Below, in pieces: positions 35,753 through 51,468 of a stretch of DNA of 51,468 nt. The notes beneath the pieces are model-generated. The model was not told the origin of the DNA, searched no databases, and was given only the letters and a program-made list of their open reading frames with translations. The position numbers and the translations under genes are program-made. Numbering within the stretch: position 1 is the first letter of the stretch; every line of letters begins with the position of its first letter. Source of the stretch: Chloroflexi bacterium OHK40 (lineage in GTDB: Bacteria; Chloroflexota; Chloroflexia; Chloroflexales; Chloroflexaceae); the NCBI GenBank assembly GCA_004367505.1, contig SFCB01000098.1, forward strand, positions 1-51,468, read 5' to 3'.

Positions 35753-35805
35753 GCGACCTATCATCACATCGCCGTGCAAGTGTTGTCCCTGAGGAGTCAC
35801 GCCAC

Positions 35806-36451: not shown

Positions 36452-36790
36452 ATGCAATCACACGCACGAAAGAGCCTTTCTACGCAAAACGACCCGGCAT
36501 CACTACGGACAACCACCCGGCTCTGGGAGATCGACGTGGCTCGTGGCATCGCCGTGGTGCTAATGATCTTCTTCCACCTGATGTGGAACCTGCAGTTCCT
36601 CGGCCTGAGCGATGTGAATGTCTTCTCGGCGCCCTGGCAGGCCTTCGCCCGCGGCAGCGTCGCATCGGCAGCTTCACCTTCCTGATCTAGCGGGGCTCTC
36701 GCTGGCGCTTGTTGGGCAAGGCTCCACAGCCGCACAGCACTCTGGCGCTACGCACTGCGTCGAGGCGGCCTCATCTTTAGGCTTGGCATG
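36452..36790 (+). pseudogene. Truncated DUF1624 (HGSNAT-like) membrane protein
   Basis: A start at 36452 gives RLWEIDVARGIAVVLMIFFH and the following helix LMWNLQFLGL, which match the N-terminus of DUF1624/heparan-acetyltransferase-like proteins. A frame change near 36660 follows, after which GSFTFLI, AGLSLALVGQG and LWRYALRRGGLIFRLGML reappear in other frames, separated by stops. Similarity stops at about 36790, where TnpB-like sequence on the other strand begins. It is a decayed and truncated copy. Confidence 0.75.
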
Positions 36791-36952
36791 CTGAACCGTC
36801 AGGCTCTTGCCCGTCTCACGGTAGTACGCCCGCCGACGGACCAGCGCCCAATTCCAGACCTAGCGCCGCACCCCCGCCCACTGCTCAAACACCACCTTCT
36901 GCTCACAGGACGGCAGCAGGCGGTATCGGTAGGCTTTCTGATGGGCACTCAT
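36791..36952 (-). pseudogene. TnpB/OrfB N-terminal remnant (IS200/IS605 type)
   Basis: Minus-strand reading from the ATG at 36952: MSAHQKAYRYRLLPSCEQ, then EQWAGVRR, an internal TAG stop, then VWNWALVRRRAYYRETGKSL. This is the N-terminal region typical of TnpB (RLYP..EQ..., WNWAL). The catalytic domain is absent. It ends at the junction with the DUF1624 fragment. Between 36953 and 37207 I see no gene. Confidence 0.75.
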
Positions 36953-37207
36953 GTCGTTCCGCTCATCTGTTCGGGCGTCTGTAGTCTACTACTTCGAGGG
37001 CAGTTTGTCGCGGCACCACGCCATCAAACGCGCTTCACCCCCGCCGCAAGCAGCGGGGCACTCGCGCTACCAAACACAAAGTAGACCGGATTGTCTTCTT
37101 CGAGATCCCTGGTTCTCGCGTTTGATCGTTCTTGGGGTGTTTGACAGCCAATTTCGAAAAATCCCTCCGCGTCCGTGGCGTTACACAAACGTCCAGCGCT
37201 TCCGGCG

Positions 37208-37573
37208 TCAGGCCATCTTTGGGTTGATGGGTGGAGCGGCCGGCCCCGACCGCTCGTGGATTGCCAGGTCGTAGGCGACGTCCATGGCTTCGCTGACAAA
37301 CTCCTGGAACGCGTCGAAGAACTCGAGCTCGGGGTCGTCGCGCTGGGCGTAGCACAGCTTGCGCTGCGCAAACAGCCACTCGGCTTTGCCCACATCCTCG
37401 GGGCTCAGAAACACCGCGATCTCGTTCGCCAGCGGCTCAGCCTCCTCAGCGGCACGCACGAGGCGAGCGCGGAGTTCGGCGATGATGCGCTTCGCGGTGG
37501 CAAGGTCGGTCACGTCCGGCGCTGGCTCGTTAGTCTCGGGCAAGGAGTTGCCTGCTGTGGTCTCGTTCTGCAT
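37208..37573 (-). CDS. Small acidic helical protein, unknown
   Basis: 121 residues, acidic and mostly predicted helix (LATAKRIIAELRARLVRAAE, then EPLANEIAVFLSPEDVGKA). No family recognised. It lies 15 bases after the integrase stop on the same strand, so it may belong to the recombination module of the element. Two cysteine-free halves and no membrane segments; likely cytoplasmic. Confidence 0.6.
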   Translation of the reverse strand: MQNETTAGNSLPETNEPAPDVTDLATAKRIIAELRARLVRAAEEAEPLANEIAVFLSPEDVGKAEWLFAQRKLCYAQRDDPELEFFDAFQEFVSEAMDVAYDLAIHERSGPAAPPINPKMA

Positions 37574-37588
37574 GGCCTCGATCTTCCG

Positions 37589-38890
37589 TTATCCATCCTG
37601 TTGCGGCTCTTCGCCAGGCTCAGCCGCATCCTCGTCCGGCCGCTCATCATTCGCCGTCGGCGCTTGCACGCCCCCGTCTACGCGCTCGTCCCCGCCCTCC
37701 TTCGCCGCTGTGCCTTCTGCCGCTCCATCAATCAGCTCCTCGATCTTCGTCGTGGCGTCGCGCTGGAGCCGCGGCAGCACGTGGGCGTAGGTGTTCATCG
37801 TGGTGCTGATCTGCGAGTGGCGCAGGATCTCCATCACCACGCGGGGGTGGACGCCCTGGGCGATCAGCAGCGTGGCGCAGGAGTGGCGCAGGTCGTGGAA
37901 GCGGATCGTCTCCGGCAGCCCCGCCTTTTTGAGCACCTGCTTGAAGTGACGGATGAGGTTGCGCGGCTCGATCGGCGTGCCCGTGCGGGTGGTGAAGACC
38001 AGCCCGTTCTCCTGCCAGGCCTCGCCGGCCTCCGCGCGCTCCTGCTCCTGTATCTCGCGTCGCCGCCTGAGCTGGGCAAGGAGCACCGGCGGCAGGTCGA
38101 CGCCGCGGGCGCTGGACGCGGTTTTGGTGGTGCCGCGCTCCAGTCTGCCGCGCACCCGCTGAAGCACACCGGTGACTCGGAGGGTCGCCCGCTCGAAATC
38201 GATGTCCTTCCAGCGCAGGGCGAGCACCTCGCCACGACGGAGGCCGAGGCTCAGCGCGATGCGGTACAGAGCCTCCCAGCGATGGCCAGCGACCGCCTTG
38301 AGCAGCGCGCGGGCCTGTGTCTCATCCAGTGGCTGAATGCTGAACTCGGGCTGCGCCTCCTCCTCATCGGCGTCAGTATCGCGGTAGCGCGGCACGTCCA
38401 CGAGCGTGGCGACGTTGCGCTGGACGTACTGCCAGCGCATCGCCTGGTTGAGCGCGCGCCGCAGGGCCGCGCGCACATTGCGCACGGTGTTGTACTTCCG
38501 GCCCTCGGCCGCCAGGGCGTTGAGCATCGCCTGGACATGCTCGGGCTGGAGCTTGTCGAGCTGGTGGCGGCCGAGGTGCGGCTTGAGGTGGTCCTTGATG
38601 ATCTGCCTGTAGCCGTCAACGGTGCGGGCTTTGTTGCGCCTGCTGACCACGTCGGCTATCCAGCGGTCGAGAAACTTGGCCACCGTTAGGCGCTCGACCG
38701 CCAGGTTGGCGCCGGCCGCCTGCGCCTGCTGGGCCGCCCGCAGTTTCTCCACGACCTCCTTGCGCGTGTCGCCGTAGATGTACTTGCGCTTGCGCTTGCC
38801 GTTGACCACTCCGAGGTCGATGACGGCACACCAGCGGCCGTCTGGTCGTTGGTGAATGGAGCCCTCACCGTTGCCACGTCGTCTGCCCAT
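37589..38890 (-). CDS. Tyrosine-type site-specific recombinase (integrase)
   Basis: About 433 residues from the ATG at 38890; GGAGG ends 4 bases before it, whereas the frame extends to 39001. N-terminal arm-binding AP2-like region (GRWCAVIDLGVVNGKRKRKY), SAM-like core-binding domain (TVAKFLDRWIADVVSRRN), then catalytic residues: Arg in LGLRRGEVLALRW, His-Arg in HDLRHSCATLL, His in ILRHSQIS, and the nucleophile in NTYAHVL. It would integrate and, with the excisionase-like gene, excise the element. C-terminal tail of about 50 residues is acidic and low complexity. No att site found in the window. Confidence 0.95.
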   Translation of the reverse strand: MGRRRGNGEGSIHQRPDGRWCAVIDLGVVNGKRKRKYIYGDTRKEVVEKLRAAQQAQAAGANLAVERLTVAKFLDRWIADVVSRRNKARTVDGYRQIIKDHLKPHLGRHQLDKLQPEHVQAMLNALAAEGRKYNTVRNVRAALRRALNQAMRWQYVQRNVATLVDVPRYRDTDADEEEAQPEFSIQPLDETQARALLKAVAGHRWEALYRIALSLGLRRGEVLALRWKDIDFERATLRVTGVLQRVRGRLERGTTKTASSARGVDLPPVLLAQLRRRREIQEQERAEAGEAWQENGLVFTTRTGTPIEPRNLIRHFKQVLKKAGLPETIRFHDLRHSCATLLIAQGVHPRVVMEILRHSQISTTMNTYAHVLPRLQRDATTKIEELIDGAAEGTAAKEGGDERVDGGVQAPTANDERPDEDAAEPGEEPQQDG

Positions 38891-39073
38891 CTCGACCTCC
38901 ATCGCCTGAGCTGGCCGGAGCACACTCCGTTGCCCAAAGCGGTACGAGCGACAACGCACCTGTTGTCGCCGATAGCTGTTTCTGTGTTCGTGAGGGCGCA
39001 CCGAACCAGCCCATGCGTCAGGTGATGCACGGTCGACGCAGCGCTACGCCGTTGTTTGCTTCAGGCCAGGAGC

Positions 39074-39304
39074 TTAGGGGGTTGCGGCCGGGGTGGTTCG
39101 TCGGGCGACCCAGGCACGCAGCGCTGCGACGGGGATGCGACGGGCAGCACCGTGTCGCACCGAGGGGAGCTCACCGGAGTCCATCAGCTCGTAGATCGTC
39201 GAGCGGCTGAGGCAGAGGATGCGAGCGGCCTCCTCAACCTTCACCAGCAGCGGCTCGATCGCCGCCTCCAGCTGGAGTTGCTCCTGCTGCGGTTGCTCGC
39301 TCAT
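39074..39304 (-). CDS. Excisionase-type helix-turn-helix DNA-binding protein
   Basis: 76 residues from the ATG at 39304. A MerR-like HTH of the excisionase type: VKVEEAARILCLSRSTIYEL, then MDSGELPSVRHGAARRIPV. These small proteins bind next to an att site and direct the integrase toward excision, or regulate it. It is divergent-free, transcribed toward the integrase gene with about 180 bases between. N-terminal Gln/Glu-rich leader of about 20 residues. Confidence 0.87.
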   Translation of the reverse strand: MSEQPQQEQLQLEAAIEPLLVKVEEAARILCLSRSTIYELMDSGELPSVRHGAARRIPVAALRAWVARRTTPAATP

Positions 39305-39452
39305 GGCTGTCCTCCTGCTTATCCACGTTCCATCCAAGTCGTTGAGATTGCTCTGGAACACATCGTCTTGTGTGGACAGCATACAGGACGATGGTGTATT
39401 TGCGAAGGGGACAGTTGAGGGGTCATGTCTGGGGACATGAGAGGGGGACAAA

Positions 39453-40118
39453 CTAGCTTGGAAAGCCGAGGCCGCGCTCGCGAAGCGAAACGTAGCGCCC
39501 ACCCGCGATGACAAGATGGTCGAGACATTCGCAGTCGAGGAGTTTTCCCGCCTCGACGATCTGTCGCGTGACCAGAATATCCTCCGGCGACGGAGTAGGG
39601 TCGCTGGTCGGATGATTATGCGCCACGATGATGCTGGTTGCGTTCACCCGCAACGCCTCCTTGAACACCTCCCCCACTCTGATCATGGCCGTGTTGACCG
39701 AGCCGCGGTAGACCTTGGATACTTTGATGAGACGATTCTTGGTATCAAGGGCGGCGACCCAGAGCTCCTCCTGGTCGAGGGCCATCATCTCGATCATGAA
39801 GAGCTTGGCGACGTCGGCGGGGGACTTGACCTGAAAGCGGTCGTGGTAGCCGGCGATGGCCAGGCGCCGGCCGATCTCCAGCGCCGCCTTGAGGCTCGCG
39901 GCCTTACGGGGCGTGCCGATGCTGGCCGCGACGGCGCGGATGTCGGCGCGGAGCAGGCCGACCCAGCCCTGGTAGTCGCGCAGGCACTGCGTGCAGATCT
40001 CCAGGTCATGCTGGCCGGAGACCAGGGCGAGCAGCTCGGCGTCGCTGAGCACATCGGGGCCGTGGCGGGTGATGCGGCTGGCCGGCTGCTCGTCGGCGGG
40101 GAGTTCGCGGATGCGCAT
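39453..40118 (-). CDS. radC: RadC-type JAB/JAMM-domain protein
   Basis: 221 residues. The UPF0758/RadC region has an N-terminal HhH-like portion (SDAELLALVSG) and a JAMM motif VAHNHPTSDPTPSPED with the two histidines and an aspartate of the metal site. The end is LLDCECLDHLVIAGGRYVSL. RadC proteins are common on mobile elements; their role (thought to be in repair or antirestriction) is not settled. The cysteine pair motif CTQCL near residue 43 is unusual. Start overlaps the upstream gene by one base. Confidence 0.9.
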   Translation of the reverse strand: MRIRELPADEQPASRITRHGPDVLSDAELLALVSGQHDLEICTQCLRDYQGWVGLLRADIRAVAASIGTPRKAASLKAALEIGRRLAIAGYHDRFQVKSPADVAKLFMIEMMALDQEELWVAALDTKNRLIKVSKVYRGSVNTAMIRVGEVFKEALRVNATSIIVAHNHPTSDPTPSPEDILVTRQIVEAGKLLDCECLDHLVIAGGRYVSLRERGLGFPS

Positions 40119-40330
40119 CAGCGTCCCCCTTCGTTCATGCGGTCGACCACCTTGACCACCCGCAGCGCCAGTATGAGCCGGTGCCCCTGGCGGATCAGCT
40201 CGGCCACGCGACCGGCCGCCGAGGGGTTGGACAACACCAGGTCGGCGTACTGCTGCTCAAGGCGCTGATGAGATTGTTGCCCGCCGCGCCGTCCGTGCTC
40301 GGCGGCGTTCTCGCTGGTAAACCGCGTCAT
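40118..40330 (-). CDS. Small hypothetical protein, operonic with radC
   Basis: 70 residues from the ATG at 40330. Begins MTRFTSENAAEHGRRGGQQS, a small basic, Gly-containing start reminiscent of stress-related short proteins, then a helical LVLSNPSAAGRVAELIRQ and RLILALRVVKVVDRM. Stop overlaps the radC start by one base, so it is in the same transcript. No family recognised. Confidence 0.6.
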   Translation of the reverse strand: MTRFTSENAAEHGRRGGQQSHQRLEQQYADLVLSNPSAAGRVAELIRQGHRLILALRVVKVVDRMNEGGR

Positions 40331-40440
40331 CTGTGTGCCCTCCCGGTTCGTGTCGAAACCTGGGCATAAGTAACCAGCCGCCGGGCGGCTGGTAGGCACT
40401 GGGCGAGCGAGCGGCGAAGCAGGCTACCCCGGAGGCAGGC

Positions 40441-40473
40441 AACAAAACAGCCCCAGCAGGCGGCTGAGGCTGT
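40441..40473 (-). terminator. Rho-independent terminator, minus strand
   Basis: Stem ACAGCC/GGCTGT with an inner CAGC/GCTG pairing, followed on the minus strand by TTTTGTT. It lies after the Rpn/DUF4351 group and before the radC transcript. Confidence 0.75.
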
Positions 40474-40505
40474 GGAGCGGACTATGGAGAGCTGAAGCAG
40501 TCGCT

Positions 40506-40856
40506 ACGCGTCTGGAGCGTGGTCCTGCTGGGCGAGCCAGGCCAGGAGATCAGTCTGCATGGTGAAGTCGAGCAACGCCTCGCTCAGGGTAAGCAACGCA
40601 TCAGGGGCGAGTGCCACTACACGCGCTTGCAGCTCTTCAGAGAGCGGGCCGGGCTTGCGGTTTCAGCAGCCGCAAGACGATCTCGCGCCGTGAGCGTCAG
40701 TAGCGTCTCAGGAGAAAGCGCTGCCACCCGCGCCTGAAGTTTACCGGCGAGCGGTCCAACCTTTCGGTTCAACTGGCGCAGCACAATTGCCTGGCGCTCT
40801 TCACGCCGGCCTTCCGCCCGACCGATCTCCTCGAAACTGGTAACGAAGTGGGTCAC
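40506..40856 (-). pseudogene. Tandem DUF4351 modules, frameshifted, downstream of the Rpn gene
   Basis: GTG at 40856 overlaps the Rpn stop (GTGA). The reading frame repeats the Rpn C-terminus: FVTSFEEIGRAEGRREERQ, then IVLRQLNRKVGPLAGKLQAR. After LTLTA it shifts frame; the next frame reads RREIVLRLLKPQARPALSEE, then LQARVVALAPDALLTLSEAL and LLDFTMQTDLLAWLAQQD, ending at 40506. So two more copies of the DUF4351 end follow the one in the Rpn gene. The frame break makes the fragment unlikely to fold as one protein. Confidence 0.8.
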
Positions 40857-41833
40857 GATCCTTGCCTGCCGTCTTGCTGGTCGAGCCAGGCCACAAGGTC
40901 GCCCTGGTCGGCAAAGTCGAGCAGCGCCTCGCTCAATTCGAGGAGGGCATCCGGAGCCAGCGCAGCGATCTGCGCCTGAAGCGTGTCTGGAAGTGAACCA
41001 AGTTTGCGATTGAGCTGGCGCAGCACAATAGCCTGCCGCTCTTCGAGCTGCCCCTCAACCCGCCCCTCGAGCCTGCCCTCAGCCCGCCCGATCTCCTCGA
41101 AGCTGGTGACGAAGGTGTCCATACCGGTGACCTCCTGTTCCACTGCTCGCATTTTATCACGCGCCTCCTGCGCGCGCACCGGGTCGAGCCGGAGGATGTG
41201 GTCGATCAGGCGCAGCAGGGCTCGGACATCCTCGGCGTCATAGCCGAGGCCGAGCAGCGTGCGAAAGCGCGCCACCTTGCGCTGTAGCCGCTCCGCCGGT
41301 TTGCCTCGCGTTTCCAGGCCGTCGCGATGAATGAGGGTCAGGGTCGCAAACGGGTTGCGCAGCGTCTCCAGATCAGCGGGGTCGAGGTCGAGCAACTTGA
41401 TGGTGGGGAAGCGGAGCGAAAGCGAGCAGCCCCAGAGGTCGGAGGCGAATGCGCTGGGCCGCCAGGCCGGGTCGTCATCGCCGAGGACCGCCAGGCTCAC
41501 CACTGGCACACGCTCGCGGTCGAGGATGCGCGCGTGGTAGAAAAACATCCGCTCTGCGAACACTGCGTCGTGCTGGCTTTGGATCTCGATATGAATGAGC
41601 ACCAACGCGGGGGTGCCGTCGCGACGAGTGACGGCCGCGAGCTTGTCGACGCGCTGCTTGCCCTCGGGGTCCTCAGGGGCGATCTGCTGGAGGTCGGTGT
41701 CGCGAAAGACGACCGGCTCGTCCCAGTCGATGGCCTCATAGGCATCGGGGAAGAAGAACTGGAGGAACGGCGCGAAGTAGCGCTCCAGGGCGTACTTCCA
41801 CGCCCCGTCGAAGTCCGAGGATGGCTGCTTCAT
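40853..41833 (-). CDS. Rpn-family PD-(D/E)XK nuclease with DUF4351 C-terminus
   Basis: 326 residues from the ATG at 41833. The N-terminal PD-(D/E)xK region shows IDWDEPVVFRDTDLQQI and ALVLIHIEIQSQHDAVFAER, where Glu and Gln take the ExQ-type catalytic positions. The C-terminus is a DUF4351 module: RQAIVLRQLNRKLGSLPDTL and so on, with LLELSEALLDFADQGDLVAW. Rpn proteins promote recombination or transposition and some act as DNA endonucleases. A Gly/Arg/Glu-rich linker (EEIGRAEGRLEGRVEGQLEE) separates the halves. The element setting fits a recombination or defence role. Confidence 0.87.
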   Translation of the reverse strand: MKQPSSDFDGAWKYALERYFAPFLQFFFPDAYEAIDWDEPVVFRDTDLQQIAPEDPEGKQRVDKLAAVTRRDGTPALVLIHIEIQSQHDAVFAERMFFYHARILDRERVPVVSLAVLGDDDPAWRPSAFASDLWGCSLSLRFPTIKLLDLDPADLETLRNPFATLTLIHRDGLETRGKPAERLQRKVARFRTLLGLGYDAEDVRALLRLIDHILRLDPVRAQEARDKMRAVEQEVTGMDTFVTSFEEIGRAEGRLEGRVEGQLEERQAIVLRQLNRKLGSLPDTLQAQIAALAPDALLELSEALLDFADQGDLVAWLDQQDGRQGS

Positions 41834-41979
41834 GGCTGCCTCATCACAACAAGGAGCGGCTGGGACCCCAGCATTGTATCCGAAGTCGAACGCGCGTTCA
41901 ATCGCGAGGGCGCCTTGTGGGCGTGAGCTCGTGCATGTAAGAACCCACTCGCTCACGCCCAGCGTGCGAGCCACTCCGC

Positions 41980-44900
41980 TTAGAACAAGGACAACTGGCG
42001 CACCTCTGGCTCGCTGACCGCAGCTTGAGTGTGTGCTGCTGGTCGCCGTCGCTGCGTTGTGGCTTCACTAAGGGGCGTAGAGCGAAGTGGTGTGCTGTCG
42101 AACAAACCAACCGCGACCGCCAGCGCCTGCACCTCTTCTGCATCACGTTGTGCAGCCTCATTGGTCTCGCCGCCAGAGCGCGTGCTCAGGGCTTCCTGCT
42201 CCATCATCCTTGCCATCAGGGCAAGCGAGGCGGGGGCGGGCGGGATGACCGTCGCCCACTCGTCCCAGCCCTCCTCGGCCCGCTCCTGCTGGGCGAGGGC
42301 GAGCAGCAGGTCGGCCAGCGGCGTCTCGTCCGCTGCTGCCACGCGGGCGGACCGAGCGGTTCCTTCCGGCACCGTCGCGTGTGCCCCGTCGGCCTGTGGG
42401 TCAGTCTGGGCCTCAGCCGCAGCGAAGGCGGCATTGATCGCCTGGAGCTCGCCCATCGCCGCGTCGTAGGTTGTTTGTCCGTCCCAGCTGGCCAGACGCG
42501 CAAGCTCGCGGTCGATGGTGGCAATGCGCTCGTTGGCTTCGGCGATGCGCCCGTGCAGTCGCTCCAGGATGCTGGGAATGTCGCTCACGGTGTGGCCGAC
42601 GCTCTGCCAGACGCCGGTGTCCGTGGAGGCCGTAATGGTGTCGAGGGTGGCGCCGCCGGGGAGCGCAAGGCTCAGGTCGGCGGCGAACACGGCGTGGGCC
42701 TGGACGACCAGGTCGAGACCACGGTAACGGGCGACCACCCCCCGCAAACGCTGCCGCTGGAAAGCAGCCGCGCTCTGGTAGTCGTGCACGAGTCGGCGCA
42801 CCGCTGACCCCGCCTCGGCCCGCGCCGTCATTGTTTGGTTTGGTTCCGCTCCTACCGTCGTAGCCACCTCAGCACAGAACGGCTCGTGCGGATAGGCAGC
42901 GACGAGCTTGGCGGCCCACTCCCACTGGGCGCGGCGGCCCTCGACCCGGCGGATCTCCTCCTCGGTGAAGTGGCGCTCCAGCTGGAGGTTACGCCGGGTG
43001 TCGAGCCAGACGCCGCGCACCCGCTCAAGCCGAGCGACCTCGGCCTCCAGCTGCACCTTGCGCACGACCTGGGGGTTACCGCTGGCGATCGCCTTGATCT
43101 CAGCGGCCGACAGCACCACGTCCGAGGTATCCTCGACGGTGCGGGCGGTGATCTCGCCGGCCAGCGCCTGCTCGATGAAGCGGGCTTTGGATTCCACCAG
43201 CTGGTAGAGGTAGGCGTCGAAGGAGCCTTCGGTGAGGTAGCTGAAGATGTAGCAGGCTGGCCACTGATTGCCCTGGCGCAGGATACGGCCGTGGCGCTGC
43301 TCGAGGTCGCCCGGGCGCCAGGGGCAGTCCAGGTTGTGGAGTGCAATCAGCCGCTGCTGCACATTCATCCCGACACTCATCTTGCCGGTCGAGCCGATCA
43401 GGACGCGCACGCAGCCCTCGTTCATCGCGGCGAAGAGGGCGTCGCGCTGGGCTTTGGTGGTGCAGTCGTGGATGAAGGCGATCTCATCGCGGGCAACTCC
43501 CGAGGCGACGAGGCCGTCGCGAATCTCGTAGTAGACGAAGTTGCTCAGCGTGCGCTCCTCGGCGGTCTCGACCTCCTCCTTACCCTCGGAGCTTTCGCCC
43601 TGCGGCTCGGTCACCATGATGCGAGTTGGCGGCTCGTCCGCGCCCCGTCCAGTTCCCTTGGGCGTGGCCAGGTCGCAGAAGACCAGCTGGGTGCCCCGGA
43701 GCGGTGCATAGGTGTGGTACAGCTGGGCAACGTTGGCGACGAGTGCGCCGATCTTGCTCCGCCGGGTGCGCAGGGCCTTGGGCACGACCAAACGGATGTC
43801 GAGTGCGGCCTTGCGCCCGTCACCCACGACGCGCAACATATTGTCGATGCTCGGGTCGACCCGGCCGCTCCGTACGTCGTCGGCGCGGGCGACCAGGGAC
43901 TGGACGTAGCGCTTCAGCGCGGCCGAGGGCGGCACCACGACCGGGATGACCTTGCCGGTGACCAACTCCGGCTCGGGCAGGCCCATCTGGGACTTGGTAC
44001 GCAGATTGAGCACCTGGCGCCATAGTGCCGACATCTCCGGCAGGTTCACGAAGGTCGCCAGCCGAGTGTTCATCCGGAAGCCGCCGCCGTCGGGCTTCAT
44101 CTCAAACGCCATCTTTGGCTGGGCGTACAAGGACACCCACTCGTCGAAGTGGTGGATGCCGACGGCTTCCAGCTGCTGCTCCTGGAGGTAGAGCTGCATC
44201 ACATACCCCTCACCGATGGTGTTCATAATGGGCGTCGCCGTCAGGAAGACGACCTTTTTCTGGCGCTGGAGCAGGTCCCAGGTTTTGATGCGCATGTCGA
44301 GCGCACGCTGGCTGTGGGCCGAGGGCAGGCCGGCGATGTTGGTGAGCCGGGTCGGCACGAAGAGATTCTTGTAGGCATGGGCTTCGTCGACGATGAGCAT
44401 GTCGAGGCCGAGCTCCTCCCAGGCGATGGTGCGGGCGCTGTCGCGGGCGATGCTGTCGGCCATCGACTGTAGCCGCTCCTCCAACCGCTTGATCGCCCGC
44501 TCGATCTGCTTCAAGGAGCGCTTCTCGTCGCTTGAGGTGGCGGTGGCCCGCTGCTCCTCCAGGTAGGCGCGGAGGCGGTCGGTCTCCTTGTCGCGGAACG
44601 CGGTCACGAGGTCGGCGCTGAGCGGCAGCAGGGTGAAGCTGGAGTGCGCAATGACGACGAGGTCCCAGTCGCCCGTGGCGATCCGGCTGAGCACCGTGCC
44701 CCGGCGCTGCCTGGCGAAGTCCTCGGGGGCCATCGCCAGCACCTTGATGCCGGGGTAGAGCCGGCGAGCCTCGTTGGCCCACTGGCCCACGAGATTGTTT
44801 GGCACGACTGCGAGGGCCTTGGTGCAAAGGCCGAGGCGGCGGGCCTCGACCGCGGCTGCAATCGCCGTGAACGTCTTGCCACCGCCGACGGCGAAGCCGA

Positions 44901-47349
44901 GCAGGGTGCTGGGCCGCTGCAGGATCTGCCAGACCGCGCCCTTCTGATAGTCGGCCAGGTCGCCACCGCGGAGCAGTGAGGCGTTGATGCCGGGGAACGA
45001 GAGATGGCCGCCGTCGTACACGCGCATGCGGTGGCTGTTGAAGCGCTCGTTGTAGAGCCGGCACAGCTCGTCGGCGCGCGCGGGGTCGTCCCAGACCCAG
45101 CGCTGGAAGGCCTGGGCGATCTCCTGCTGCTTCTCCTGGGCGGCCACCGTCTCGGCCGGGTTGAGCACGCGCCGCTCCTGGTCGCCGACGGTGATCACGT
45201 CGTAGACCGTGACCGGCACGCCGCGCAGGGAAGCCTCCAGGATGGCGATGGCATCTGCTCGTTTGGTGCCCCAGCGGGTGGTTGCCTCGACGGCGAACGC
45301 CCCCTGCTTGCCGGGGTCGGACAGCACCCACTCGCCCAGCGACGTGCGATACGTCGCCTCGCCTACCCAGACGGGAAGCAGGCTCTTGATGAAGGCCGTG
45401 ACGATTGCGCCCGGCAGCCAGAAGGCGTTGAGGTTGACGATGATGTCGCGCGGGCCGAGCGGCTCGGGCTGGACGGCCTGGAGTGCGGCGACGTTGCGGG
45501 CAAACGCCGGGTCGCGCTCGACCCAGACCCGGGCGTCACGGAGCTTGGCCACCACGTTGCCGCTCAGGTAGATGTCGGCGAGCTCGTACTGGCCTGTGCC
45601 AGGGAGGCGGTAGACCCGCTGGTCCAGGGCCGCGACTACCGCATCAGGCGACTGCCCGGCCAGCGTGGCGATGTAGCCGATATCGAGGCCACCGCGCTCG
45701 TCGAGGCAGCGCAGCAGCGCCTCGGTCGGGCTCAGCGTGCCGGGGAGCACAGTCTGGTGTGGGCGCAGGGTGCGCTCACGGAAGATGCGCTCACGGTCAG
45801 CCAGCCAGCGCCCGCTCGGCGTGCGGCGGGGGTTGCGCTCCAGGGCCAGGAGAAACTGTAGCTCGGGTACGTCACCGAACAGCCGCTGGTTGCGCGGGTC
45901 GTGGATGACGCCGTACTGCCACACGAAGCCCTGGTACACCCGGTTGAGTTCGGCCCGCGCCGCGTCCACATCAGGCTCGTCGTTCAGCTCGGCCCGGATG
46001 AGTGCTTTGGCGGCGTTGTAGATGTTTGCCAGGCCGGCAGCGCGTTCCTGGGCCACGCCGCCAAGCGCGGGGATGGCAATCTGCTCGGCCCGGCGCTCGT
46101 GGAGGGGCGACGGCGCGGCCGATACAGACACTACCGCGACCTCGTTCGGCGTGAAGGGGGCGATCACCTGCGCGGGCAGCAGCGTGGCGAGGCGCGCCTG
46201 AAGCGTTGCGGCTAGATCATTGGCTGGTGGCATCACCTGGAGCCAGAGGCTGTTGTCGCTGGTGACGACGACCGGCTGGCCGATCACGCGCTCCGGCTGG
46301 TCGAGCCAGCACTGATTGACGGCCAGGCGGGCCGCGGCGAGCTCCTCGGGGTCCTTGATCTCGCGGGTGTAGCGCGAGCCAACCGTCATCGAGCGGTGGT
46401 CAGTTGATCGCTGGTAGTCAGCCTCCGCTACCATGAGCCAGCGCGGTTGCTCTGCTTCCGGCTGCGGCTTCTTCTGGAGGATGAGCAGGTCGGTGGCGCT
46501 CTCCGAGCCGCTCATACGCCGGAACACGCCGTTGGGCAGGCGGAAGGCGCCCAGCAGCGTGGCCTGCTCGGCCAGGAAGGAGCGGACGGCCCGGGCCTGC
46601 TTGTCCAGCGTGCCCCAGCTGGTCAGGAAGACAACCAGGCCGCCAGGCCGCACCAGCCGCAGGGCTTTGGCGAAGAAGTAGTCATGAATTTGTCCGCGAA
46701 GAGCTGCGGGGACATGGGGGTCGTGGACGCTCATCTCGCCAAACGGGACGTTGGAGATCGCCAGGTCGAAGCCGTTGGGCGGCAGGTCGACGCGCTCGAA
46801 GCCGATGCCGCCGTGCAGGGTGATGTCGGGATGGATGTGGCCGAGGATGCGGGCGGTGACTGGGTCGAGCTCGACGGCAGTGATCTCGGCCCGCGCCCGC
46901 AGCTCCGGCAGCATCGCCGAGATGAAGTGGCCCACGCCGGCGGCCGGCTCGATGATGCGCGGGCGCTCCAGCGCTCTGAGGCCGAGCTGCTCGACGGCCT
47001 GCCAGATTGCGGCGACGATATCGAGCGGAGTGTAGAAGGCGGTCAGTGCGGCGACACGGAGGTGGCGGGCGTCGTCGGATGATAGGAACGCACCATAGCT
47101 GTCGTGGAGCACATAGCGGCCGGCGGCGTGGTCGTAGCGGAAGAGCCGGTTCAGCAGGGCCGACTCGCCAAACGCGCTGTAGTGCGCCAGGACGAGCCGC
47201 TCCTCGTTGGTTGCGGGGCGGCCCTCGGCCTCCAGCTGGTGCACCAGCGTGAGCGCGGCAAGATTCTTCCCAAAGCGATCGCCGGGGCCCGTGAAGCTCA
47301 GGGTCTCGGGCGTGAGATGGAAGGCCGACGGGCAGGACAGGTTCGCCAC
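41980..47349 (-). CDS. Giant N12-class adenine methylase fused to a SNF2-type helicase
   Basis: 1789 residues. Start GTG at 47349 with GGAG about 7 bases before. N-terminal methylase: AdoMet motif IIEPAAGVGHFISAM near 135, and the catalytic NPPY-class motif seen as NVPFG near 205 (Val in place of Pro). The helicase has Walker A AVGGGKTFTAIAAA near residue 820, Walker B VDEAHAYKN near 986, FLTATPIMNTIGEG, and the C-terminal SNF2 helicase motif LEQRHGRILRQGNQ near 1360. Both halves and the linker form the N12-class mobile-element methylase family. It likely modifies or remodels element DNA; actual methylation is untested. C-terminal 250 residues are coiled-coil and low complexity. Confidence 0.9.
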   Translation of the reverse strand: MANLSCPSAFHLTPETLSFTGPGDRFGKNLAALTLVHQLEAEGRPATNEERLVLAHYSAFGESALLNRLFRYDHAAGRYVLHDSYGAFLSSDDARHLRVAALTAFYTPLDIVAAIWQAVEQLGLRALERPRIIEPAAGVGHFISAMLPELRARAEITAVELDPVTARILGHIHPDITLHGGIGFERVDLPPNGFDLAISNVPFGEMSVHDPHVPAALRGQIHDYFFAKALRLVRPGGLVVFLTSWGTLDKQARAVRSFLAEQATLLGAFRLPNGVFRRMSGSESATDLLILQKKPQPEAEQPRWLMVAEADYQRSTDHRSMTVGSRYTREIKDPEELAAARLAVNQCWLDQPERVIGQPVVVTSDNSLWLQVMPPANDLAATLQARLATLLPAQVIAPFTPNEVAVVSVSAAPSPLHERRAEQIAIPALGGVAQERAAGLANIYNAAKALIRAELNDEPDVDAARAELNRVYQGFVWQYGVIHDPRNQRLFGDVPELQFLLALERNPRRTPSGRWLADRERIFRERTLRPHQTVLPGTLSPTEALLRCLDERGGLDIGYIATLAGQSPDAVVAALDQRVYRLPGTGQYELADIYLSGNVVAKLRDARVWVERDPAFARNVAALQAVQPEPLGPRDIIVNLNAFWLPGAIVTAFIKSLLPVWVGEATYRTSLGEWVLSDPGKQGAFAVEATTRWGTKRADAIAILEASLRGVPVTVYDVITVGDQERRVLNPAETVAAQEKQQEIAQAFQRWVWDDPARADELCRLYNERFNSHRMRVYDGGHLSFPGINASLLRGGDLADYQKGAVWQILQRPSTLLGFAVGGGKTFTAIAAAVEARRLGLCTKALAVVPNNLVGQWANEARRLYPGIKVLAMAPEDFARQRRGTVLSRIATGDWDLVVIAHSSFTLLPLSADLVTAFRDKETDRLRAYLEEQRATATSSDEKRSLKQIERAIKRLEERLQSMADSIARDSARTIAWEELGLDMLIVDEAHAYKNLFVPTRLTNIAGLPSAHSQRALDMRIKTWDLLQRQKKVVFLTATPIMNTIGEGYVMQLYLQEQQLEAVGIHHFDEWVSLYAQPKMAFEMKPDGGGFRMNTRLATFVNLPEMSALWRQVLNLRTKSQMGLPEPELVTGKVIPVVVPPSAALKRYVQSLVARADDVRSGRVDPSIDNMLRVVGDGRKAALDIRLVVPKALRTRRSKIGALVANVAQLYHTYAPLRGTQLVFCDLATPKGTGRGADEPPTRIMVTEPQGESSEGKEEVETAEERTLSNFVYYEIRDGLVASGVARDEIAFIHDCTTKAQRDALFAAMNEGCVRVLIGSTGKMSVGMNVQQRLIALHNLDCPWRPGDLEQRHGRILRQGNQWPACYIFSYLTEGSFDAYLYQLVESKARFIEQALAGEITARTVEDTSDVVLSAAEIKAIASGNPQVVRKVQLEAEVARLERVRGVWLDTRRNLQLERHFTEEEIRRVEGRRAQWEWAAKLVAAYPHEPFCAEVATTVGAEPNQTMTARAEAGSAVRRLVHDYQSAAAFQRQRLRGVVARYRGLDLVVQAHAVFAADLSLALPGGATLDTITASTDTGVWQSVGHTVSDIPSILERLHGRIAEANERIATIDRELARLASWDGQTTYDAAMGELQAINAAFAAAEAQTDPQADGAHATVPEGTARSARVAAADETPLADLLLALAQQERAEEGWDEWATVIPPAPASLALMARMMEQEALSTRSGGETNEAAQRDAEEVQALAVAVGLFDSTPLRSTPLSEATTQRRRPAAHTQAAVSEPEVRQLSLF

Positions 47350-47533
47350 AGCAGTGCTCCTCTCGGGTGAAGGAAGACTGCGGTGGCGGCATCACGCCGC
47401 GGGCGGCGTGATAGTGGCTCCTTGCTTGATCAGCGGCTCACGACGCTGGTTGTGATGTGCTATGCGGGTTGGACGAATAATATGCAGGAGCTGTGACCCT
47501 GGACCAAATGCTCCACTCAATCGGGGGCATCGC

Positions 47534-48040
47534 ATGACCGTCGACGAGACGAACGAGCGCTTTCTGGCCTTGCTGGAGGCTCACCAGAAAATCCTCTACA
47601 AGGTGGCCTACGTGTATTGCCCCCACCCCGATGACCGGCCTGACCTGATTCAGGAGATGATCGTGCAGCTCTGGCGCGCCTTCCTGCGCTTCGACCCGCG
47701 CTATCGCTTCTCCACCTGGATGTACCGGATCGCCATGAACGTAGCTATCTCCGCCGCTCGTCGCGAGACCCGCCGCGCCCGCCCGCTCGTGGCATTTGAT
47801 GTGGAGGTCCACGATACCATCGCGAGCGCCTCCGACCCGGCAGAGCTGGTGGAGCTGCGCCAGGCGATCGATGGCCTCGACGGCCTCAACAAGGCCCTCG
47901 TGCTGCTCAGCCTGGAGGGGCACCCCCACGAGACGATCGCCGAAATCCTCGGCATCTCGGTGAGCAATGTTGGCACCCGGCTCAGCCGTGTGCGCCAGCG
48001 TCTGCGCCAAGTCCTTGACCCAACCGACCCCACTGGATAA
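47534..48040 (+). CDS. Sigma-70 family, ECF-like sigma factor
   Basis: 168 residues from the ATG at 47534, with GGGGG before. Region 2: ERFLALLEAHQKILYKVAYV, DLIQEMIVQLWRAF and the region 2.4-like FSTWMYRIAMNVA. Region 4: EGHPHETIAEILGISVSNVG, then TRLSRVRQRLR. No region 1.1 or 3. A membrane protein gene follows 11 bases later and is a candidate anti-sigma or sensor partner. The pair is divergent from the giant methylase gene, so both sides of the promoter region could be under its control. Confidence 0.93.
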   Translation: MTVDETNERFLALLEAHQKILYKVAYVYCPHPDDRPDLIQEMIVQLWRAFLRFDPRYRFSTWMYRIAMNVAISAARRETRRARPLVAFDVEVHDTIASASDPAELVELRQAIDGLDGLNKALVLLSLEGHPHETIAEILGISVSNVGTRLSRVRQRLRQVLDPTDPTG

Positions 48041-48051
48041 GGAGGCTTCCT

Positions 48052-48735
48052 GTGAGTCTTGAGACCCTTCAGCGCCGCTGGGACGAGTTCGACCAGAAGC
48101 TTGACGAGCGGCTACGGCGGCAGGATGGTTTCCTGCGCCGCCTGTACCTCCAGTCGGTGCAGGCCCCCCTGCGCCGGCGGAGCTGGGCTGTGGGCGCCGA
48201 GGTCGCGCTCAATGTGGCGGTCCTGCTGCTGCTCGGCAGCTTTTTGTTTCACCACCTCGCCGCGCTGCCCTTTCTGCTCCCTGGGCTGGGGCTGTATCTC
48301 TTCGCCCTCTGGCAGCTCGTGGCGAGCGTACGTCAGCTCGTTGCGCTGCGCACCCTCGACTACAGCTCGCCGTTGGTGGCGCTCCAGCAGCGGCTGGCCC
48401 GGCTGCGGGTGCAAAGCCTCACGCAGCTGCTGTGGACGGTCGCGCTGAGCCCGCTGCTTTGGCCACTACTCGTGATTGTCGGACTGAAGGGGCTGCTCGG
48501 CCTCGATGCGTACGCGGTACTGGGGCTGCCCTGGCTCGGGGTGAACCTGCTGTTAGGGCTCGTCTTTGTGCCACTCGCGGTAGGGCTGGCCCGTCTGCTG
48601 GGGCGGCGGTTTGAGTCATCGCCAAAGTTCCAGCGCCTGCTCGGCGACCTGGCCGGTCGCAGTCTGCTCGAAGCACGGGAGGCGCTTGAGGTGGTCGAGG
48701 CCTTCGCCGGTTCGCCCGAAGCCGTGGAGCGCTAG
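48052..48735 (+). CDS. Polytopic membrane protein paired with the sigma factor
   Basis: 227 residues. A cytoplasmic N-terminus of about 45 residues (WDEFDQKLDERLRRQDGFLR) is followed by hydrophobic helices: VALNVAVLLLLGSFLFHHLA, FLLPGLGLYLFALWQLVASV, a middle loop, LLWPLLVIVGLKGLLGL and LPWLGVNLLLGLVFVPLAVG. The start is GTG at 48052. Position right after an ECF-like sigma factor, with a charged cytoplasmic N-terminus before the helices, is the layout of membrane anti-sigma factors, but no zinc-anti-sigma HxxxCxxC motif is seen. Partner role is inference. Confidence 0.7.
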   Translation: MSLETLQRRWDEFDQKLDERLRRQDGFLRRLYLQSVQAPLRRRSWAVGAEVALNVAVLLLLGSFLFHHLAALPFLLPGLGLYLFALWQLVASVRQLVALRTLDYSSPLVALQQRLARLRVQSLTQLLWTVALSPLLWPLLVIVGLKGLLGLDAYAVLGLPWLGVNLLLGLVFVPLAVGLARLLGRRFESSPKFQRLLGDLAGRSLLEAREALEVVEAFAGSPEAVER

Positions 48736-48771
48736 GCTGTGGGCGAAGACCGTGGGGCTGCTCGGTGGGGT

Positions 48772-49164
48772 TTACGCAGCACTGACCGGGATGTAGTCGA
48801 GCTGCAGATAGGCGCACAGCTCGATGGGAAGCGGTGGGACGTTGACGTCGAAGCGTCGTCGTGGGCTGCTGACGGTGAGCAGGAGGGGCTGCCGCGTGCG
48901 TAGCAGCCGGGCGATGTGCGCCGCCTCGTCGTCGTTAACGCACCAGGCGATATGGGAGGGGCCGAGGCTGAGGATGACGACGATGCAGTCGGTGATCGGC
49001 CCGGTCACAACCCGCCAGGCGGTGCGATGGTCGGCGCGGAGCATATCGTATTCGGGCTCAGAGACGTGGACCAGCACCGTGTCCGTCACCTCGGTGGGGA
49101 GCGAGACGGCCAGCAGGTCGTCGATATCAAACTCCTGTTGTTCGGCCGCGGTGTACCTCATCAT
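48772..49164 (-). CDS. Hypothetical soluble protein
   Basis: 130 residues from the ATG at 49164 (49161 and 49224 are alternatives). Acidic to neutral, DIDDLLAVSLPTEVTDTVLV and HVSEPEYDMLRADHRTAWRV at the start, VNDDEAAHIARLLRTRQPLL near the end. No membrane segment or known motif. Convergent with the membrane protein gene; the region after it contains no clear terminator. Function unknown. Confidence 0.6.
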   Translation of the reverse strand: MMRYTAAEQQEFDIDDLLAVSLPTEVTDTVLVHVSEPEYDMLRADHRTAWRVVTGPITDCIVVILSLGPSHIAWCVNDDEAAHIARLLRTRQPLLLTVSSPRRRFDVNVPPLPIELCAYLQLDYIPVSAA

Positions 49165-49267
49165 GCCCTCCTCGCTCGCATGTTCGATAGCGAAGAGGGT
49201 ACACGAAGTCGGGTAAATTGACAAGGGTAGGAAAGAGATTCAAGGGAGGGGCGAGACGAGGCACGCG

Positions 49268-50185
49268 CTACCTGTCGACCAGTGACACGCCGTAGGCCTG
49301 GATGACCGGGTCATCGCGCAGCTTGTCCAATGCGCCGACGATCACCTGTCGCACGCGCTCGCGGGTCAGCCCGGCCTGCCGGCCGATCACGTCGAGCGTA
49401 ACCTTCTGCCCGCTGCCAAAGCCGAAGTGGGCACGAACAAACTGCCGCTCGCGCTCGGTGAGCAATCGCGCCATCGCCTCGCGGATATCCGTCTCGACGG
49501 TGCCCTCAAGCACGTGAGACTCCGGGTCGAAGCGCGTGTCGGGTAAGAGTTCGCCAAGCTCGCTGCCATCCGCCTCGAACCCCATGCGGACGTTCAAGGA
49601 GCCAGCGTCCTGAAGGTCGGCTCCCACCGAAACAATCTTCGCCCGTGACCAGCCAAGGGCGGCGCCGAGCTCCTCGGGGGTGGGCTCGCGGCCGAGCTGC
49701 TGGGTCAGTAGCGAAGAGACCCGCCGCTTCGCTGCGAGGCGCTCGTGGAGGTGGATGGGTAGGGCGATCAGCCGGCCCTCGTCCATGATGCCGCGCGTGA
49801 TGGCCTGCCGCACCCACCAGGTCGCGTAGGTCGAGAGCTTGTTGGCCTTGCGCGGGTCGAAGCGGTCGATAGCCTGGAGCAGGCCGATGGTGCCGAAGCC
49901 GATCAGGTCCTCCAGGCTGAGATGCTCGCCAGCGACATGCTGGTAGCGCCGGGCGAGGTTAACCACCAGCCGCAGGTTGTGACGAGCCAAGGTGGCCCGG
50001 GCCTCCTCGCCCTCGGTGACCTGACGGCGAAGCGCTGGCTCGGCTTCCGCTTCGGACGAGAGGAGCGTCGTGCGAGCGGCTACTCCCGTGCGCATCGTGG
50101 CGATCAGGGCCGCCTCCACCTCGTGCGATAGGACGGGGTGGTCGGTCAGGGCGGCTATGGGGTTGGTGAAGGGGTCAGGCGGCAT
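49268..50185 (-). CDS. RpoD-like sigma-70 factor on the element
   Basis: 305 residues from the ATG at 50185. Region 1.2/2: ARHNLRLVVNLARRYQHVAG, LSLEDLIGFGTIGLLQAIDR and KLSTYATWWVRQAITRGIMD; region 3 follows with PIHLHERLAAKRRVSSLL; region 4 has TLDVIGRQAGLTRERVRQVI. The helices match group 1/2 sigma factors (RpoD/HrdA-like), not ECF. It lacks region 1.1, so it is likely an alternative factor carried by the element. Translation overlaps the DUF559 gene by 11 bases. Confidence 0.92.
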   Translation of the reverse strand: MPPDPFTNPIAALTDHPVLSHEVEAALIATMRTGVAARTTLLSSEAEAEPALRRQVTEGEEARATLARHNLRLVVNLARRYQHVAGEHLSLEDLIGFGTIGLLQAIDRFDPRKANKLSTYATWWVRQAITRGIMDEGRLIALPIHLHERLAAKRRVSSLLTQQLGREPTPEELGAALGWSRAKIVSVGADLQDAGSLNVRMGFEADGSELGELLPDTRFDPESHVLEGTVETDIREAMARLLTERERQFVRAHFGFGSGQKVTLDVIGRQAGLTRERVRQVIVGALDKLRDDPVIQAYGVSLVDR

Positions 50186-50819
50186 AGCGGGCCTCCAGGA
50201 GTTGCGCGAAGAGCCGGTCGGCCTCGCCCTGGAACACCTGCTCGTTCGTGAGCGTGAGAACCGACAATCCCTGCGCCTCGATGCTGACCTGGCGGGCGGC
50301 GTCGCGCTCGGCGGTGAGGGCGTGGACACCGCCGACTACCTCGATCACCAGTCCGTGGGCGGGCAACAGCAGGTCGCAGGCGTAGCCGAGCACGCGGGCC
50401 TCGATAATGGCATCGGTCGGTGACCAGGGTGAAGGTGCCGGAGCGGCTCGAAATGCTGTCCACTCCCAGACACCGCTCAGCTCGGCGTGAAGGGTCAGCC
50501 CGGCCTGGAGCGCAAGCCAGTGAAGTAGCTCTTCAGCAGGTGTAGGGTTCGCAATGCGCCAGCGCCGGCGCCGCTCGTGAGCGGCGGTCAAGATGGCCTG
50601 CATCTTCTCAGCACCATGCTTCTGGACGGCCTGCCCGTAGAGCGAGCGCTGGTAAGCGCAGTAGCCATTCTCGCCGAGGGACGACCGAAGCTGGGCCTGG
50701 CGGGCGATGCCGCCGGCACGGGCGAGTGCTTGCTGATAGCGCCGGTAGCCGTTCTCGCCGAGGACCGTCTTGATCTGCGCTTGCCGGGCGCGCCCCCCGG
50801 CGCTCTGCCGGGCGCTCAC
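50175..50819 (-). CDS. DUF559-type nuclease-like protein with N-terminal repeats
   Basis: 214 residues from a GTG at 50819. The first 60 residues hold two copies of a repeat: ARQAQIKTVLGENGYRRYQ and ARQAQLRSSLGENGYCAYQ. The C-terminal half is a DUF559/Vsr-like PD-(D/E)xK domain: ARVLGYACDLLLPAHGLVIE, then VVGGVHALTAERDAARQ and LSVLTLTNEQVF. Metal-ligand Asp and Glu positions are visible as CDLLLP and VIEV. The start overlaps the upstream hypothetical gene (GTGA) and its end overlaps the sigma factor. Possibly a nuclease in element maintenance. Confidence 0.8.
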   Translation of the reverse strand: MSARQSAGGRARQAQIKTVLGENGYRRYQQALARAGGIARQAQLRSSLGENGYCAYQRSLYGQAVQKHGAEKMQAILTAAHERRRRWRIANPTPAEELLHWLALQAGLTLHAELSGVWEWTAFRAAPAPSPWSPTDAIIEARVLGYACDLLLPAHGLVIEVVGGVHALTAERDAARQVSIEAQGLSVLTLTNEQVFQGEADRLFAQLLEARYAA

Positions 50820-51064
50820 GGAGTCACCTCGTCGGCGAGCCGGCCGACGGCTTGAAGGAAGCGGCGGATATCGTCGGCGTTGCGTAGGCGGAAGCGCTCG
50901 CCGTTGAGCGCCGTTACGCGGATAACCACGACCTGGTCGAGCTCGGCGGTGTCGTTGCTGTCAGCGTCGAGGAGGACGTAGCTGCAGAAATGTAGGGGGA
51001 AGCCGCCGGCCCGGCTGTGGAAGAGCGTGGCGCTCGTGATCGGCGCCTCGATGAGCGGGTGCAT
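50816..51064 (-). CDS. Small hypothetical protein, first gene of the sigma operon
   Basis: 82 residues from the ATG at 51064 (AAGG upstream). Contains SATLFHSRAGGFPLHFCSYV and AELDQVVVIRVTALNGERFR, an apparent small beta-rich protein. Stop overlaps the DUF559 start (GTGA), so it heads a three-gene unit with the nuclease-like and sigma genes. A terminator hairpin lies upstream at 51103-51125. No family recognised. Confidence 0.6.
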   Translation of the reverse strand: MHPLIEAPITSATLFHSRAGGFPLHFCSYVLLDADSNDTAELDQVVVIRVTALNGERFRLRNADDIRRFLQAVGRLADEVTP

Positions 51065-51102
51065 GCAGGAGCCTTTCTGGCGAAGGCGGATACCTGCACG
51101 CG

Positions 51103-51125
51103 AAAAAACCACCGCCCCGCGGTGG
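51103..51125 (-). terminator. Rho-independent terminator, minus strand
   Basis: Perfect 7-base stem CCACCGC/GCGGTGG with a CCC loop; on the minus strand it is followed by six T. It ends transcripts coming from the right edge before the sigma operon. A second GC stem (GCCGGC) lies just to the right. Confidence 0.82.
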
Positions 51126-51216
51126 TACTGTCCGCTGAGAAGCACAATGCCGGCCTCCTCTGGGATAGAAGAAGCCGGCTCAGGTCAGGGGGTGGGATTG
51201 TGAATCTGCCGGAGGT

Positions 51217-51468
51217 TCAATCCTGCCAGTAGCTGATCAGCTGCCCCTGTGGGTTGTAGAGCACCCCATCATCTCGGTCACTGTCGCTCCAGATGTTGCC
51301 GGCCGGTCCCGGAAACACCTTCGTCTCACCCGGTCCCAATTCGCCGCCGACCGTATGCTGCTGATTGCCTCTGATATGAAAAAGCTCGCCGGCAGGGGCC
51401 GTCAGTCGGCCGCGACCGCCCGTGGTTCAAGGTTGACAATGAACCCAAGGCGCTCGATACGGAAGGTC
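51217..51468 (-). pseudogene. Lamin-tail-domain-like fragment, cut by window edge, apparent frameshift
   Basis: Minus strand, in one frame ending TGA at 51217: ELFHIRGNQQHTVGGELGPG, then ETKVFPGPAGNIWSDSDRDD, then GVLYNPQGQLISYWQD. This has the glycine, W-S-D and L..P.G pattern of lamin-tail domains. The upstream part, TFRIERLGFIVNLEPRAVAA, is in another frame and ends at a stop at 51402, so a one- or two-base indel or a break has occurred. Lamin-tail domains occur in secreted or envelope proteins. Only the last domain is in view. Confidence 0.5.

Follow-up and report, generated by a model that had tools for sequence, protein, structure and literature searches.

A core RpoD-like sigma factor and a cargo ECF sigma factor on a small integrative element of Chloroflexi bacterium OHK40

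The window considered here, a stretch of 51,468 nucleotides, is the whole of contig SFCB01000098.1 (C199) in the 6.93-Mb, 301-contig genome of Chloroflexi bacterium OHK40 (Chloroflexaceae), and its right quarter is filled by one copy of what is, judged by gene content and recurrence, an integrative element of about 13 kb, extending from 37589 to about 51130. The element core comprises an integrase, radC, a helicase-methyltransferase gene and an operon of overlapping genes, orf109-DUF559-sigma, that codes for an RpoD-like sigma factor; a second sigma factor, of the extracytoplasmic function (ECF) type, lies beside it in another operon. An earlier note on this DNA had proposed that the two factors form a pair with which a mobile element runs its own transcription programme. 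Across the compared loci, the RpoD-like factor belongs to the element as a kind, and the ECF factor does not. The sigma genes and their immediate surroundings are as follows.

49268-50185, minus strand: RpoD-like sigma factor of 305 amino acids, a core element gene (PF04542, PF04539, PF04545)
47534-48040, plus strand: ECF sigma factor of 168 amino acids, cargo (PF04542, Sigma70_r2, 3.9e-16; PF08281, Sigma70_r4_2, 4.6e-12)
48052-48735, plus strand: membrane partner of 227 amino acids with several hydrophobic stretches, starting 11 bases past the ECF stop
47415-48771, no strand assigned: variable cargo slot, here holding the ECF gene and its partner, delimited by comparison of the slot across copies

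Both sigma factors are real and lie where the note had placed them, with the spacing of 1.2 kb (48040 to 49268) and the membrane partner 11 bases downstream of the ECF gene that it had described. The mobility that it had assumed is borne out by a tyrosine recombinase gene (37589-38902) and by the presence of the same gene block at three non-homologous places in one genome, namely on contigs C199, C212 and C41 (blastn against stretches of the two latter contigs). Three further genomes of the same family (G417, G375 and G405) carry the element together with the RpoD-like factor.

The RpoD-like factor and the cargo slot across copies

Regions 2, 3 and 4 of the RpoD-like factor all pass the Pfam cut-offs, and the protein scores about 170 bits against the solved chains of SigB, HrdB and SigA. 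The cut-offs of RpoD-type subfamilies in NCBIfam are not reached (TIGR02997, 215 bits versus 384.5; PRK07921, 203 versus 464), and among the 25 NCBIfam families listed for the protein the general family TIGR02937 alone passed. The genes that share its surroundings are these.

50816-51064, minus strand: orf109, first gene of the sigma operon, with a product of 82 amino acids from the ATG at 51064; kept in C212, C41, G417 and G375
50175-50819, minus strand: DUF559 protein (PF04480, 1.9e-7), overlapping the sigma start by 11 bases
48772-49164, minus strand: orf150, with a product of 130 amino acids from the ATG at 49164 that has counterparts in C212 and C41 and no family match
41980-47349, minus strand: protein of 1789 amino acids with a methyltransferase-like N-terminal part and an SNF2/DEAD-type helicase, 83% identical in amino acids to that of C41

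Where the DNA upstream of the helicase gene is readable, the RpoD-like factor precedes it in 6 of 10 loci, these being C199, C212, C41, G417, G375 and G405, the last with a sigma gene cut by the contig; G222, G411 and G410 were left out of the count for want of enough upstream sequence. The order orf109, DUF559, sigma, slot, helicase is found by tblastn in all five loci with a complete sigma gene, and the overlapping DUF559-sigma arrangement of the window recurs in the other four. The genes orf93 and radC come after the helicase in four of the five, the contig of G417 stopping at the helicase end, while that of G405 starts inside the sigma gene, whose 3' end lies at the contig edge, and then follows the same order. 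No orf150 turned up in the loci of G417 and G375.

A sigma match at E 1e-60 occurs in 3 of 158 genomes of the class (its own, G417 and G375). All five complete copies are intact, with ratios of nonsynonymous to synonymous changes (dN/dS) of 0.17-0.25 between the copies of the genome itself and 0.28-0.50 across genera, as obtained by a simple counting method at dS of 0.5 to 1.0; these values show purifying selection on the RpoD-like factor, insofar as such counts reveal it. The sigma protein changes faster than its neighbours, being about 60% identical between genera versus 77-79% for the helicase, 75-76% for the DUF559 protein and 83% for RadC (G375).

In a midpoint-rooted tree with six hand-picked RpoD-like host paralogues, to which they are 35-39% identical, the five element factors form one clade with support of 100/100 and a stem of 2.04 changes per site. 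Recent capture of a host sigma gene was rejected on account of the long branch, which has all five element factors on one side. The point at which the clade joins the host factors is unsure, two of the paralogues (L011 and L005) being long-branched in this midpoint-rooted tree, and the tree program warns of false attraction between L005 and the element clade. A phage origin was also discarded, since none of the 80 best among 436 IMG/VR relatives is more than 41% identical; relatives on plasmids (31 records) all fall below 60%, the best among the 20 listed reaching 44%. Taken from gene order, intactness and tree together, the comparisons show the RpoD-like factor to be, as far as these loci represent it, an old and conserved gene of this element type.

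The motifs WW[VI]RQ and TR[ED]R[VA]RQ, which we take to be the residues of -10 and -35 contact, are conserved in the element factors, and a housekeeping-like promoter would therefore be expected for the RpoD-like factor. One residue of the melting region is leucine in all five element factors and phenylalanine in five of the six host paralogues (L011 also has leucine). A changed pair of melting-region residues, considered as a mark of the element, was dropped because the host paralogues vary at the first position too, so that only the phenylalanine-to-leucine change stands.

The ECF gene is of a different standing. Its product, of about 170 amino acids, contains regions 2 and 4 only, and exceeds the cut-off of the NCBIfam sigma70-ECF superfamily (88.7 bits versus 42.9) as well as that of TIGR02937. 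The membrane partner, which matches no Pfam or NCBIfam family, is probably an anti-sigma factor; over its first 92 amino acids hhalign gives a likeness (E 1e-4, probability 57) to the proteins coupled to Bacteroidota ECF factors, which is suggestive, not proof of homology. The insert starts one base past the helicase leader and stops at the orf150 stop. In C212 the slot consists of about 105 bp between orf150 and the helicase leader, with no cassette, and in C41 it is occupied by a zinc-ribbon gene plus a gene of 140 amino acids; the zinc-ribbon gene recurs in the slots of G417 and G375 (80 and 73% identity), and in all three it is oriented like the ECF gene. The ECF pair is thus found in one of the six loci with the RpoD-like factor, C199, which shows it, on present copies, to be a passenger of a variable slot. 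Another ECF gene on contig C212 is chromosomal and different from the cargo gene.

In 400 genomes of the phylum, scored for the best first-look candidates of each genome only, no relative of the ECF factor was found at E 1e-22, and none of the membrane partner at E 1e-3, outside the genome itself. ECF relatives at 1e-10, searched for on plasmids only, lie on eight plasmid records, six of them from Bacteroidota, matches that do not fix the source of the cassette. In three of four inspected plasmids (Runella, H. yonginensis and B. finegoldii) a coupled gene follows 1 to 6 bases on, and in that of H. volaticus the next annotated gene lies 261 bases past the ECF relative. A relic-like stretch of 55 amino acids, 49% identical to the C-terminus of the partner, was seen in the genome itself at G000:C246:58931-59095 (L037), with no ECF gene noticed in 3.2 kb around it. 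A cyanobacterial relative of the partner (L053) was rejected, its match lying in a frame opposite a long gene with no ECF gene seen nearby; the scan reaches close relatives only.

The retention of the RpoD-like factor without the ECF pair leaves the idea of two factors for one programme unsupported: that both lie on the element holds, but not that they are matched. One form of that idea is a cascade, in which the ECF factor would answer an envelope signal and switch on the RpoD-like operon in an autonomous two-step programme. The two genes are indeed intact and 1.2 kb apart on one element, but the RpoD-like operon is kept with its leader and without the ECF pair in C212, C41, G417 and G375, the ECF gene and its partner have no element leader (folding z of +1.25 and +0.97), and the DNA ahead of the sigma operon contains no sigma-70 consensus promoter (a scan for an ECF-type promoter was not made). 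Such a cascade is very improbable.

The remaining genes of the window copy complete the element.

37589-38902, minus strand: tyrosine recombinase (integrase) of 437 amino acids at the left element end (PF00589, 4.6e-28; phrog_1, 1.4e-83)
39453-40118, minus strand: RadC-like JAB-domain protein (PF04002, 4.7e-41), 99% identical in amino acids to the C212 version
40118-40330, minus strand: orf93, a small-protein gene preceding radC (start at the ATG at 40330); kept in C212, C41, G405 and G375
40853-41833, minus strand: DUF4351 protein (PF14261, 4.2e-16)

Relaxase and type IV secretion genes, the marks of an integrative conjugative element, are absent from the 13 element genes of the window as searched with Pfam, the rest of the genome not having been searched. 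Blastn pieces matching the window block are 69-90% identical in C212 and 76-82% in C41, and the match reaches C212:49818 and C41:936 at one end. A helicase protein search gave four pieces for three copies, the C212 helicase being split. In a search of 41 genomes the helicase was matched best, outside the genome itself, in G405 (78%), G222 (59%) and G411 (48%), with pieces also in G410, G407, G024 and G409.

The right flank is common to C199 and C212 over about 250 bp, where the sigma operon borders on the C-terminal end of a protein gene (window 51131-51376; C212 49571-49818); this gene is longer and open in C212 and only its end is left in C199, as if C199 derived from a C212-like copy with some flank. 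The RadC proteins of window 39453-40118 and C212 36973-37638 are 99.1% identical at 26% synonymous differences, the dN/dS of 0.013 being far stricter than that of the DUF559 protein (0.12) and of sigma (0.17) in the same pair. Adjoining the element, window 18788-36444 contains a run of metal genes (metal P-type ATPases, cation efflux, ZIP, multicopper oxidase, iron-dependent repressor, Dsb and SCO1, with ArsR- and MerR-like genes judged by eye), for which no blastn piece longer than 150 bp was found in the compared stretches of C212 and C41. A Mutator-family transposase (PF00872; 4554-5855, minus strand) is flanked by a cadmium transporter on one side and an ICMT-type gene on the other.

Leaders and promoters of the element operons

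Alignment of the copies shows that three element operons, those of orf109, the helicase and orf93, start with a leader of about 70 nucleotides that is predicted to form two hairpins. These leaders, 66-72 nucleotides long, are the most conserved non-coding DNA noticed in the element. A first hairpin framed by TAYCA and TGRT is followed by a short spacer and by a second hairpin, which is predicted to hold the Shine-Dalgarno sequence and whose end coincides with the start codon or adjoins it. The start of orf150 has a hairpin predicted to bury the Shine-Dalgarno sequence, outside the two-hairpin layout.

51060-51130, minus strand: leader of the sigma operon, with hairpin 1 at 51108-51126 followed by a T run (five aligned copies; terminator scan)
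47346-47414, minus strand: leader of the helicase gene, which borders the cargo slot at its outer edge (nine aligned copies; model R1, 89 bits)
40326-40396, minus strand: leader of orf93/radC, two hairpins
49196-49224, minus strand: promoter-like TTGTCA-N17-TACCCT ahead of orf150 (aligned in three copies; below the scan threshold)

The hairpin pattern of the sigma-operon leader, allowing at most one mismatch, occurs in the genome at the three element copies only. No Rfam family matched the leaders at E 5 or lower in window 36500-51468, the three matches elsewhere being far below their gathering scores. Hairpin 1 was rejected as a general terminator, the T run being present in four of five sigma-operon leaders and in none of nine helicase leaders.

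In the helicase leaders (n=9), 93.5% of cells are paired and changes on both sides occur in 6 of 24 pairs, figures that lean towards the tested sequences because the structures were drawn from them. None of 500 shuffles was as high on double changes and 6 of 500 were on further pair types, with all six slides lower; without G222, 3 of 24 pairs remain, with 9 of 500 shuffles as high and all slides at 0. Detection across leader types is weak, R1 finding the sigma-operon leader of G417 at 23 bits, and R2 the helicase leader of G409 at 17.0 bits and the orf93 leader of G375 at 17.5 bits. At E 1 or lower R1 matches 27 of 41 family genomes, many of them weakly; among the stronger matches, those inspected, the convincing one beyond the training loci lies in G407:C136 (50 bits), ahead of a helicase relic. 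Matches in G094 (35 and 34 bits) and G206 (31 bits) were dropped as plain GC-rich hairpins, and those in G260 (40 bits) and G267 (35 bits), which resemble partial relatives of the G222 leader, were not counted.

The folding of 70-nucleotide gene starts points in the same direction. All nine orf109, orf150 and helicase starts of the three copies have z of -2.9 or lower, these genes having been chosen after they were seen, and z of -2.5 or lower is reached by 10 of 34 element gene starts versus 2 of 68 control genes. Taken from the true starts, the orf93 leaders have z of -2.7, -4.1 and -3.9, the C212 value being -2.0 if the start chosen by the gene caller is used.

A strict scan of 47300-51468 found 0 sigma-70 consensus promoters versus 0.5 in shuffles, and the same scan in C41 (700-11400) found three versus 0.9. 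The best in C41, TTGTCA-17-TATACT ahead of orf150, has 10 of 12 consensus bases and is of the ordinary housekeeping type; it is weaker in C199 and C212, and is the sole conserved promoter noticed. Its -10 adjoins the 5' arm of the hairpin that buries the Shine-Dalgarno sequence. The leader palindromes were tried as -35 elements and dropped, since the helicase leaders have no -10 at a constant spacing from them. The shared -10/-35 elements for which the earlier note had proposed a search ahead of element genes did not appear, either in the window scan or by eye in the aligned leaders.

A possible element switch

As a whole, these observations are best explained, with slightly less than even confidence, by a core RpoD-like factor and leaders that would act as a self-reinforcing switch of the element, the ECF factor being cargo. 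The leaders would keep element genes silent when host transcripts enter from outside. Translation of the sigma operon would then let the RpoD-like factor join host RNA polymerase and favour housekeeping-type promoters, such as that ahead of orf150, thus reinforcing the switch. An orf150 transcript from outside would carry the entire hairpin over the Shine-Dalgarno sequence, whereas one from its own promoter would start inside the hairpin and lack most of the 5' arm, and hence be translated, because that arm begins in the -10 box, an anti-read-through logic that is known from some transposase genes. The ECF factor would be sequestered at the membrane by the partner protein, and its targets would be chiefly its own operon or genes of the host rather than the element. 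The broader proposal, that of an element family with a self-contained switch, in which its own sigma lineage and a repeated leader would gate operons against read-through, leaving them silent in the chromosome and turning them on as a unit when sigma is made, we consider unlikely. An RpoD-type core gene retained at one position of a small integrase-based element in four genomes of a single family would mean that such elements can carry their own transcription specificity, and the shared leader offers a concrete, testable way in which an element could stay silent whatever an adjoining host promoter does.

Several results weigh against a switch of this kind. No promoter motif common to several element operons was found, and the scan found none for the sigma operon, directly ahead of which lies a terminator-like hairpin; DNA beyond the sigma-operon leader is unconserved except between C199 and C212. 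The sigma gene is absent upstream of the helicase in G024 (18.8 kb), G409 (3.5 kb), G407:C462 (2.5 kb) and G407:C136 (1.5 kb), and three of these four loci keep the leader, so that helicase and leader do not always travel with the sigma factor; the four are fragments or, in the case of G407:C462, a distant copy. The support from paired changes is modest, reaching moderate in the helicase leaders. Half of the six double changes there come from G222, one in a well-aligned hairpin 1 and two in a badly aligned hairpin 2, and with G407:C136 in place of G222 the result is 3 of 24 pairs, with 11 of 500 shuffles as high and one slide also at 3. In the sigma-operon leaders (n=5) 2 of 18 pairs changed on both sides, as in 61 of 500 shuffles, and covariation is not shown there, five sequences being a set too small to test it and RNAalifold's own pairing keeping one double change. 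A Shine-Dalgarno zone that is at least 80% paired is not rare either, being present in 10 of 68 controls and 7 of 9 element starts. No 11-mer is common to the compared flanks of C199, C212 or C41, that is, no direct repeats of an attachment site were found, in a comparison limited by short flanks, on the right in C199 and on the left in C41, and blind to repeats of fewer than 11 bases. In addition, two of the three copies in the genome are damaged, the helicase being broken in C212 and the integrase lying in two frames in C41.

This damage, together with the loci that show fragments only (G024, G409 and G407:C136), would fit leaders and a sigma gene that are relics of a decaying element, with nothing regulated now. 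Against such decay, all five full sigma genes are intact with dN/dS below 1, integrase, helicase and sigma frames are open in the window copy, and some leader pairs are kept by paired changes; it is distinctly unlikely.

With its contact residues kept, the factor may also read the same promoters as the host factor, a further point against an element-specific switch. A different possibility is that the RpoD-like factor acts mainly on the host, competing with the host factor for RNA polymerase during stress or phage attack, in defence or takeover, with element genes incidental. The change from phenylalanine to leucine in the melting region might weaken promoter opening. A BREX cluster (pglX, brxC and brxA by PADLOC, with brxB presumably present, as assigned by position) directly adjoins the sigma operon of the G375 element (L067, 105-8335; G375:C285), but it stands beside one copy, the other copies not having been searched for BREX. 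The defence-linked protein MzaA is matched by the RpoD-like factor at 190 bits, where the cut-off is 800, and orf109, DUF559 and orf150 have no PADLOC family at 1e-3. A precedent is given by SigN (ZpdN) of plasmid pBS32, on which damage-induced cell death is reported to depend (PMC6751061). An action mainly on the host is conceivable, if on the unlikely side, and the switch composed of core sigma factor and leaders is still preferred.

Comparison with known systems

Phages and a few plasmids are known to carry sigma factors. Among the papers listed on element- or plasmid-borne sigma factors, Bacteroidetes ECF/anti-sigma pairs and Chloroflexus mobile elements, no title or abstract opening describes this element. 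With the RpoD/SigA family (TIGR02997, PRK07921) the core factor shares regions 2, 3 and 4 and a short N-terminus, differing from it by scores below the cut-offs and by a long-stemmed clade of its own. MzaA of the MZA anti-phage system (NF041931, PDLC02203) has a sigma-70 domain in common with it, but its model spans 726 positions versus 305 amino acids here, the score falls short of an MZA assignment, and no further MZA family was found among seven window proteins scanned. The cargo ECF factor is 33-41% identical to ECF factors on plasmids of Runella, Hymenobacter and Bacteroides, with the two-gene order shared by the three inspected plasmids named above, whereas the other 399 genomes searched in the host phylum lack a relative at 1e-22. 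The Bacteroidota partners share the opening motif M-x-[LI]-[ED]-x-[LF]-x-x-x-W with the partner here, but are only about 20% identical to it.

The closest parallel to the core factor as a gene of a mobile replicon is SigN of pBS32 in B. subtilis, which reportedly serves the genes of its replicon (PMC6751061); SigN is plasmid-borne and LexA-repressed, with a mapped regulon, whereas the present factor lies on an integrative element. The leaders resemble the one that buries the Shine-Dalgarno sequence of the ISPpu9 transposase, where translation of a mobile-element gene is reported to be likewise tied to the 5' structure of its mRNA (PMC8450116); the difference is that here one two-hairpin layout repeats ahead of three operons of an integrative element.

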